A stretch of 46,320 nt of DNA from the NCBI GenBank assembly GCA_946409745.1, contig CAMJXP010000002.1, positions 1 through 46,320 on the forward strand. The letters are read 5' to 3'. Under the pieces are notes generated by a model. That model had not been told where the DNA came from, did not search any database, and saw only the letters and a list, made by a program, of their open reading frames with translations. The position numbers were made by a program, and so were the translations under genes. Shown here piece after piece: positions 40,812 through 46,320 of this stretch (position 1 is the first letter of the stretch; every line of letters starts with the position of its first letter). This DNA comes from an uncultured Candidatus Saccharibacteria bacterium (lineage in GTDB: Bacteria; Patescibacteriota; Saccharimonadia; Saccharimonadales; Saccharimonadaceae).

Positions 40812-41897
40812 TTATACTCCATCGCGCCGAGTCCAGTCGGTCGCAAGATCAAATTGCTCAGGGTTCGCTACTGCAAACGAACCGGTATCATATACTTTGC
40901 CAAGTCCAAGGCTCGTTTCTACCACCGAGCAACGCGGATAACGGCTTAAGTTCGCCGCCACTAGTACGTACCCTTCCGCATCTACCTTCACACCATCAGA
41001 ACGCACCGAATAGGTCGCTGGCACGCCACATTCACGGGCGGCAATTCTCATCACGCCGCTCATATTAAGATCGTAATAAGTTTCTTGGCGCTCCACCTTC
41101 TGGCCATTCGCCTTCGTCACGGTATAACGATTGCGTCCCTTTGATTTGGTTAGTGGAGTTTGTTCAATCGCGCTAGCACCCACTGCCACGATTCTCGTGA
41201 CCGGCTCTTTCTTTACTTCTTCCGAGACTAACTTTCTCGTCGCCTCAGCCCCATCGACATATTGAACTTCATAAGTCTTCACTTTAACTCCGACCTCACC
41301 AAACTGGCGCACTTCTTCTTTACCTGGCGCGACATTGTAATCCTTTACTCTCTGCTCAGCAAACGGAATCTCTTCTTCCTCAGTTATCTTCGAACCGCCA
41401 TTTCTCTTAATGTCATAAATCTCCACCATTCCAAGCTCTAGGAACAGCGTATTCATCACCGGCTTTACCTCATCACCGTCATATACTTCAAATCCAGCGG
41501 CTCTCGCAATCGTTTTAAGATCGTAGCTCGCCGTCATCACATATTTATTATTGTCGCCATCACGCACCAGTGCCGGACGGGCCCGGTAAATATTAATAAA
41601 ATAATTATCGGCGTTCACGACAGTCTCAAGTGCTGGCTCAACAATATCACCGGTGGAAAGTTCCACACCGGAGCGTTCCAGAATCTCAGCCACAGTCGCT
41701 TCTTTAGATTTAACTGTCAACTTATCCGAGCCATCAAAAATATTCACAAAGTATTCCGATAAAAGAGTGGCTGGTTCTTCTTCGCCCGCGGCAAAGGTCC
41801 TCTGTAAAGTTAACGTGAAAATTGAACCTGCCAAAAGTAGGACAACACTGATCACTAATAAAATTAGAGCCTGATCGAGGTTTTTCGAAAGTCTCAT
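40812..41897 (-). CDS. YabE/RpfB-like protein: DUF348, G5-like and 3D domains
   Basis: VTVKSKEATVAEILERSGVELSTGDIVEP repeats; VGVKVKTYEVQYVDGAEATRKLVSEEVKKEPVTRIVAVG (G5); C-term 3D domain; placed next to rsmA as yabE is in Firmicutes. Start reassigned to 41897. Confidence 0.87.
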   Translation of the reverse strand: MRLSKNLDQALILLVISVVLLLAGSIFTLTLQRTFAAGEEEPATLLSEYFVNIFDGSDKLTVKSKEATVAEILERSGVELSTGDIVEPALETVVNADNYFINIYRARPALVRDGDNNKYVMTASYDLKTIARAAGFEVYDGDEVKPVMNTLFLELGMVEIYDIKRNGGSKITEEEEIPFAEQRVKDYNVAPGKEEVRQFGEVGVKVKTYEVQYVDGAEATRKLVSEEVKKEPVTRIVAVGASAIEQTPLTKSKGRNRYTVTKANGQKVERQETYYDLNMSGVMRIAARECGVPATYSVRSDGVKVDAEGYVLVAANLSRYPRCSVVETSLGLGKVYDTGSFAVANPEQFDLATDWTRRDGV

Positions 41898-41903
41898 ATT
41901 ACT

Positions 41904-41909
41904 ATTATA
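41904..41909 (-). promoter_or_regulatory. Extended -10 element (TGTGGTATAAT) of a leaderless gene
   Basis: TATAAT exactly 6 nt upstream of the ATG at 41897. Confidence 0.65.
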
Positions 41910-41916
41910 CCACATA

Positions 41917-41942
41917 ATAAAAACCCGGCGGGGACCGGGTTC
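41917..41942 (-). terminator. Intrinsic terminator of the ncRNA candidate
   Basis: Minus strand AACCCGG-tccccg-CCGGGTT-TTTATT. Confidence 0.8.
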
Positions 41943-42046
41943 TCAATAATCTCTAGGTGGAAAACAATTTAGCCAAATTAACTCAACGCTCTCCACCCAA
42001 TAAAACTTGATTCCAGTCCCTCTCAACGTTAGATTGACTTGAATCT
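41918..42046 (-). ncRNA. Candidate ~130-nt structured small RNA
   Basis: Promoter TTGACA (42075-42080)-N16-TAAAAT (42053-42058) with TGC extension; hairpins AATCT/AGATT (42028-42049) and ggtgga/tccacc (41956-41961/41992-41997) enclosing AAUUU/AAAUU; ends in a GC-rich terminator. Confidence 0.55.
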
Positions 42047-42205
42047 AACTTTATTTTAGCATAGCCAATTTGTATGTCAATATTGATTTTTGACTTTTTT
42101 GATGTTTTTTATTAGATAAAGTTTTCCACAAGCAAACAGGGGTACAAACTCAAAAACCGAACACTTTTCGCTTGACAATTTTTAACTTTATTTTACAAGA
42201 TATTT

Positions 42206-42763
42206 TTACAAATTGATGCGTTTGGCTTCAAAAAGCACAGTTGGTACAGCCGGAGGTGGCGTAAAATCAGTTGGTTTTAACGGCAAACGGATCTTAGTGT
42301 TGTAATCCTGGATCAATTTCAGCCCGAGTTGCGAGGTATAATGCCGCTCTGTGTTAATCAGTTTCAGCGCCATCTGCTTCTGCAGAATCAAGTAAAAGGA
42401 TTCCGGTGGGTTCTCTGCCTCAATTAATTTATGAATAATCGCCGAACTTAGGTGAAACGGTGGATTTGAGAATACTTTGTACGGTCCTTCCGGAAGCTCC
42501 ACATTCATAAAATCGTCTTCAATAATCTCGACGTTCTTAATCCCCCGTTTATTCAGATTTGCCCGAAGTTTCACCGCCGTCGCATGATCCGGCTCTACTG
42601 CTATCACCTTCATCACCCTATTCGCTAAAGCGCTCGTAATCACCCCTGAGCCTGCGCCAATCTCCAGCACGGTATCCCGTTTCTTAAGATTCGAATGACC
42701 AATGAGGATTAATGCCAGCTTTGGCGACCTTAAAAAGTGTTGTGATAAATTCGGGTCTCTCAT
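42206..42763 (-). CDS. Short rRNA adenine N6-methyltransferase-like protein (Erm/KsgA superfamily)
   Basis: LSQHFLRSPKLALILI...VLEIGAGSGVITSALANRV...VFSNPPFHLSSAIIHKLI; only 185 aa, so lacks the usual C-terminal helical domain. Confidence 0.87.
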   Translation of the reverse strand: MRDPNLSQHFLRSPKLALILIGHSNLKKRDTVLEIGAGSGVITSALANRVMKVIAVEPDHATAVKLRANLNKRGIKNVEIIEDDFMNVELPEGPYKVFSNPPFHLSSAIIHKLIEAENPPESFYLILQKQMALKLINTERHYTSQLGLKLIQDYNTKIRLPLKPTDFTPPPAVPTVLFEAKRINL

Positions 42764-46034: not shown

Positions 46035-46111
46035 TGGTGGGCGATACAGGAGTCGAACCTGTGACCTCGTCTACGTCAAAGACGCGCTCTAGCCAACTGA
46101 GCTAACCGCCC
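46035..46111 (-). tRNA. tRNA-Val (GAC), CCA encoded
   Basis: Minus strand GGGCGGTTAGCTCAGTTGGCTAGAGCGCGTCTTTGACGTAGACGAGGTCACAGGTTCGACTCCTGTATCGCCCACCA; anticodon loop TTGACGT. Confidence 0.95.
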
Positions 46112-46133
46112 ATAATAAAATTTCTTTGAAATT

Positions 46134-46210
46134 TGGTGAGTCGGGAGGGGCTCGAACCCTCGACACCGGGCTTAAAAGGCCCGTGCTCTAACCTGCTGAG
46201 CTACCGACCC
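46134..46210 (-). tRNA. tRNA-Lys (TTT), CCA encoded
   Basis: Minus strand GGGTCGGTAGCTCAGCAGGTTAGAGCACGGGCCTTTTAAGCCCGGTGTCGAGGGTTCGAGCCCCTCCCGACTCACCA; anticodon loop CTTTTAA. Confidence 0.95.
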
Positions 46211-46265
46211 AAGTTGTTAATTGTGGTGGCGCCGTTGGCGAAGCCCGGCCCACGCGTTCATTAGC

Positions 46266-46320
46266 TGGTGGCGCCGACTGGACTTGAACCAGTGACACAA
46301 GGCTCTTCAGGCCTCTGCTC
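46266..46320 (-). tRNA. tRNA-Phe (GAA), partial at window edge, CCA encoded
   Basis: Minus strand ...GAGCAGAGGCCTGAAGAGCCTTGTGTCACTGGTTCAAGTCCAGTCGGCGCCACCA; anticodon loop CTGAAGA. Confidence 0.9.

Follow-up and report, generated by a model that had tools for sequence, protein, structure and literature searches.

Small RNA A, encoded by an uncultured Candidatus Saccharibacteria bacterium, is probably a trans-encoded anti-sRNA (sponge) of a second small RNA, B, with the loop of its hairpin P2 serving as a long antisense to B. The analysis established computationally the presence of both genes, their conservation, the fold of A and a complementarity between A and B that co-varies. The window, that is, the whole analysed stretch of 46,320 nt, corresponds to contig C2 of G000, a Saccharibacteria genome of 637 kb. 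The partner RNA B is the main finding and lies beyond the reach of the window sequence alone. Features of the A locus are as follows.

41917–42080, minus strand: gap holding small RNA A, between the Erm/RsmA-like methyltransferase gene and the YabE/RpfB-like gene
42206–42763: Erm/RsmA-like methyltransferase gene, one flank of the gap
40812–41897, minus strand: YabE/RpfB-like gene with its ATG at 41897, the neighbour 3′ of A and no part of the RNA
41904–41909, minus strand: TATAAT of the predicted own promoter of the YabE/RpfB-like gene, 6 nt before the ATG, an apparently leaderless arrangement (sequence)
42075–42080, minus strand: −35 box of A, TTGACA, within the palindrome TCAATATTGA that is frequent in A promoters (sequence)
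42053–42058, minus strand: −10 box of A, TAAAAT, extended by TGC (sequence)
41918–42046, minus strand: small RNA A from predicted start to terminator end, about 129 nt (promoter and terminator in the sequence, fold, covariance model R1)
42009–42045, minus strand: hairpin P1, GAUUC.AGUC...GACU.GAAUC (fold and compensatory changes)
42020–42029, minus strand: P1 loop ACGUUGAGAG, highly conserved (alignment of relatives)
41956–41998, minus strand: hairpin P2, GGGUGGA...UCCACC, with the anti-B stretch displayed in its loop (fold and compensatory changes)
41963–41996, minus strand: B-complementary stretch of A (complementarity and covariation with B)
41919–41942, minus strand: intrinsic terminator of A, ACCCGG...CCGGGUUUUU (sequence and fold)

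The gap holds no open reading frame of at least 60 aa, in agreement with the initial annotation, which had seen no credible ORF there. That annotation had also proposed a promoter of the form TTGACA-N16; the 16-nt spacer is correct for TAAAAT but does not fit TGCTAAAAT. The transcript is predicted to start near 42046 on the minus strand. The terminator that had been assigned to the RNA is found at 41942–41919, and the nested GGUGGA...UCCACC hairpin with AAUUU/AAAUU is present in the sequence as described; hairpin P1 (42045–42009) was absent from that description. The fold of A has an energy of −52.1 kcal/mol versus −30.5 ± 3.7 kcal/mol in 200 dinucleotide shuffles, none of which was as stable (z −5.9). 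A as a coding gene was rejected, as the frame is not kept across species and loop lengths vary without preserving it. Thus, A has its own promoter, an intrinsic terminator and no conserved ORF, and its transcription is predicted. A search of Rfam 15, including 6S, SRP, tmRNA, RNase P, ydaO and other families, gave no family at the gathering score in the A region; by eye, the initial annotation had likewise matched none of the five families named here. The top sub-threshold match was GadY, with 19.3 bits versus a cut-off of 45, and a relaxed threshold brought just sub-threshold sRNA look-alikes, driven largely by the terminator.

The palindrome TCAATATTGA at 42076–42086 (minus) overlaps the −35 box of A and is possibly an operator. 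The sequence TCAATATTGAC occurs once in the window versus 0.07 expected, and also in many A promoters of the genus; in a subset of these it is accompanied by AACAAGGTTGAC. Elsewhere in the window, 46038–46320 (minus) contains two complete tRNA genes and a third truncated at the window end.

An alignment of 95 distinct A sequences, fitted to a covariance model and for this reason favouring structure, has 91.5% of its cells paired versus 82.2% when shuffled and 28–52% when slid. P1 is the best-supported helix of A, with two-sided changes in eight of its nine pairs; for the whole RNA, 14 of 15 pairs show such changes, and those in P1 are visible already in the first six sequences. A therefore has a conserved secondary structure with compensatory changes. 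Covariance model R1 found A in 111 of the 147 genomes of the genus at E ≤ 0.01, part of the weak matches being the antisense strand of B, and in about 100 of 147 at E ≤ 1e-4 (count from the R1 result table). Only two weak matches were obtained among 182 genomes of the other genera of the family, and both were rejected: that in G069 is the antisense strand of B and that in G187 is probably spurious. By these searches, A is confined to one Saccharibacteria genus. The repeated CGUUGAG reported for the gap has only partial significance: its first copy is the conserved P1 loop, and its second, within the B-complementary stretch, is replaced by GUGUAGAG in most relatives.

A lies mostly directly upstream of the YabE/RpfB-like gene, in the same orientation, and ends in a terminator, as a leader element would allow; a riboswitch or attenuator had been the alternative in the initial annotation. 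The ydaO (c-di-AMP) riboswitch, found upstream of cell-wall hydrolase genes, resembles A in being structured, having a terminator and preceding an RpfB-like gene, although A has no Rfam match and the gene seems to have its own promoter past the A terminator. A −10 box of the gene's own, TATAAT at 41909–41904, was correctly noted at the outset; with the ATG at 41897, it makes the YabE/RpfB-like gene look leaderless. In many relatives, this gene also has its own −10 box about 6 nt ahead of the start codon; at several of these loci, the automatically assigned start sits farther upstream than the probable real one. In G002, G016, G207 and G022, it is tRNA genes that follow A on its 3′ side. A is thus placed by sequence outside the 5′ leader of the gene, and it is very improbable that it acts as a 5′ leader element (attenuator or riboswitch), perhaps triggered by B. 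The proposal of an independent structured non-coding RNA of no known family, with its own promoter and terminator, is supported by its conservation throughout the genus, by compensatory changes and by the fact that the downstream gene has a separate promoter.

When relatives were searched with the DNA of A, many genomes contained a second locus matching 34 nt of the P2 loop. At this locus, a promoter and a terminator are found on the opposite strand, and the RNA encoded there, B, is therefore antisense to A.

G000 contig C15, 2955–3071, outside the window: small RNA B, unannotated, beside tmRNA

The B promoter is TTGACA-N17-TATTAT or a near variant. B is predicted to comprise a 5′ hairpin, an unpaired stretch and a terminator hairpin with the loop UUCCUCGCAG. 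The unpaired stretch reads AAUUUAGCCAAAAUAACUCCACACUCUAC in most species of the genus; the family-wide core is AACUCCAC plus a CUCGCAG loop. B was found in 177 of 199 genomes of the family (130 of the 139 good ones) and in 56 of 61 genera, and was weakly matched in four other families; the Saccharibacteria genomes with B-matching sequence are in many cases of ruminant gut origin. In Rfam 15, the B loci matched tmRNA and tRNA only, with no match to B itself. A tmRNA gene is located near B at all five scanned loci of the genus and at 19 of 20 loci of other genera; both relative orientations occur, so this is a common neighbourhood and not an operon. Two copies of B were observed in G004 (C13 and C10; L125, L264) and in G224 (C5 and C17).

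The CUCGCAG terminator loop is kept in B family-wide (L031, L391–L410) and is also present in some A terminators (G001, G128; L004 and L047). In the window, this heptamer was found twice versus 3.75 expected, which is no enrichment. The loop may be favoured in terminators or bound by a protein. By eye, the P1 loop of A could pair with this loop of B with one mismatch, and this putative pairing is weaker where the A loop is GUUGAAAG; the conserved P1 loop could also have its own partner.

No recurrent long target of B was found in G000 or the other genomes searched, and exact complements of the B core in 40 genomes are almost solely the antisense strand of B. A 28-nt match of B in a membrane-protein gene (G000:C1:32164, E 0.003) was treated as chance, and a search for an anti-B RNA in another genus, g27, gave no consistent second locus.

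In G000, the complementarity between the P2 loop of A and B covers 34 nt, with a match of about 85%. Strong duplexes, below −22 kcal/mol, are predicted in 69 of the 76 genomes having both RNAs; the cognate duplex has a mean energy of −36.8 kcal/mol, versus −19.2 ± 3.9 kcal/mol with dinucleotide-shuffled A. The cognate B outperforms other Bs for A in 91% of rows, and none of 10,000 partner permutations was as good. A second, less circular comparison took the fixed 19 nt of B as its only anchor for the two RNAs and scored the adjoining bases. Own partners again outpaired permuted ones, a result equalled in 0 of 20,000 permutations (z about 6.5), this z being overstated, as the permutation tests treat distinct combinations as independent and ignore phylogeny. 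Co-folding of full-length A and B of the window's genome gave a gain of 13.3 kcal/mol versus 3.6 ± 1.8 kcal/mol with the unpaired stretch of B shuffled.

Variants in the two genes are matched. AAUAUAG in B faces CUAUAUU in A in G228, G007, G266 and G012; ACAUUAUAG faces UUAUAAUG, with one G–U pair, in G272 and G005; AUUUUAG faces CUAAAAU in G218 and G271; and AUCUUAG faces CUGAGAU in G284, the sister genome G318 having AAUUUAG and CUAAAUG. The variable bases of B require at least six changes on a 33-genome tree of two neighbouring proteins, on which the changes in A match those in B in G284 (compared with its sister G318), G228/G007 and G218/G271; this shows that several of the A/B changes are separate events. 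A is thus complementary to the predicted exposed region of another small RNA, and covariation has kept this complementarity. Judged from such comparisons, A–B pairing is well supported. It is extremely unlikely that the complementarity is a sequence fossil, with the P2 loop copied from the reverse strand of B and the RNAs never pairing. A single long complementary block in most species is what a copied piece would give, yet both genes carry matched changes in several lineages, many G–U pairs maintain the pairing without sequence identity and extra matched blocks extend past the core (e.g. GGUCAAAACA in B and UGUUUUGACC in A, in G239, G301, G264 and G329). A mismatch that is always kept is also hard to square with repeated recopying.

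This mismatch was traced in 61 anchored A–B pairs. Full pairing over the 10 nt facing CUCCACACUC occurs in none of them; opposite the 3′ C of CUCC, 52 lack a base pair, and the other nine, although matched at this point, have another mismatch within a few bases. GGAG is present in A, in the frame facing the B core, in just six of the 61. Avoidance of RNase III cleavage or of ribosome binding may be the reason; RNase III was found in 19 of 20 genomes. A rule for how decoys of this kind escape cleavage or ribosome binding, open to testing, is suggested by the kept mismatch.

According to the proposed mechanism, in which transcription of the two genes, binding in the cell, mRNA targets of B and the outcome are all predicted, B is unpaired between its 5′ hairpin and terminator and would expose AACUCCAC, the CUCC of which could cover GGAG ribosome-binding sites of mRNAs. 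Once A is made, its GGCU loop would contact AGCC of B; the P2 hairpin would then open, leading to about 30 A–B base pairs. The duplex would sequester B, perhaps leading to its decay, and B targets would be relieved; owing to the mismatch facing the CUCCACACUC core, A would never hold a perfect copy of the target. The CopA/CopT plasmid antisense pair also makes a loop-first contact followed by a long interrupted duplex, but CopA and CopT come from the same DNA, whereas A on contig C2 and B on contig C15 are distinct genes with a match of about 85%.

Action of A on B is the preferred direction, given the much wider distribution of B. The reverse, in which A is an effector sRNA acting on mRNAs through the P1 loop or P2 and B serves in the genus as a decoy for it or as a partner in degradation, would account for the highly conserved P1 loop ACGUUGAGAG, which B does not explain, and for some A genes that lack the anti-B stretch and still keep P1. 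This arrangement is unlikely, however: B is present family-wide (177/199) and A in one genus, which means that B existed without A, and the unpaired AACUCCAC of B is conserved where A is absent. The A genes without the B-complementary stretch, found in seven to eight genomes (e.g. G002, G207, G267 and G128), may have another role or have lost the pairing role. A is present with no B match in G201, G246, G300 and others, possibly reflecting B losses or assembly gaps. In G201, a 99%-complete genome where no B match was found, A is apparently in two pieces about 100 nt apart (L050, L561; G201:C1:113300–113800); with A split and B missing, the two genes have possibly decayed together.

Sponge RNAs are already known from other bacteria, and A would work likewise if the proposed action on B holds. 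RosA is a sponge of RoxS and FsrA in Bacillus subtilis, and RoxS is reported to pair with at least one target independently of Hfq (PMC8464778). Similarly to A, RosA stands alone and is complementary to that part of another trans-encoded sRNA which is C-rich and binds targets; there, too, the sRNA is able to act without Hfq. The two have unrelated sequences; RosA uses G-rich regions with 15 and 10 consecutive bases complementary to RoxS and is processed into several species, whereas A has one stretch of about 30 nt in a hairpin loop, co-varying with B across the genus. CrfA is a sponge of SisA-D in Caulobacter, the pair being recovered on Hfq (PMC12559287), and GcvB is sponged by SroC, derived from an operon mRNA, and by the phage-derived AgvB (PMC8383071). 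Each of these small RNAs inactivates another by base pairing, as proposed for A; A, however, has its own chromosomal promoter, unlike SroC and AgvB, and in contrast to the CrfA pair belongs to a genus where no Hfq was detected in 20 genomes by a search that did recover it from control genomes, among them E. coli and B. subtilis. A–B pairing would therefore be Hfq-independent. What sets A apart from the known sponges is how long its co-evolving block is, that the mismatch is kept and that A occurs in ultra-small bacteria.

The open-access literature searched contains no description of small RNAs that act by base pairing in Saccharibacteria or, more widely, in the candidate phyla radiation. A and B are two RNA families outside Rfam, one of them near-universal in a family of ultra-small host-dependent bacteria, and they make regulation in hard-to-grow Saccharibacteria directly testable. 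Covariation of two separate RNA genes over dozens of species is unusually clear genomic evidence of an RNA–RNA interaction. On a wider and more tentative reading, B might be a core Hfq-free regulator of Saccharibacteria, perhaps covering ribosome-binding sites; one genus would possess the dedicated, co-evolving anti-RNA A, with selection keeping its duplex with B imperfect, and B-like RNAs of some phages could interfere with this circuit.

Such B-like RNAs are found on IMG/VR viral contigs.

L268, 1–94, minus strand: B-like RNA
L271, 9059–9207, minus strand: B-like RNA
L458, 9592–9726, plus strand: B-like RNA

In the L268 and L271 copies, a 5′ hairpin is not recognisable by eye; the unpaired stretch in both is AUAUAGCCAAAAUAACUCCAC, and CCUCGC forms the loop of their terminator. 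These two contigs bear phage tail genes and tRNA genes, and their B-like RNAs could be phage-borne mimics of B.
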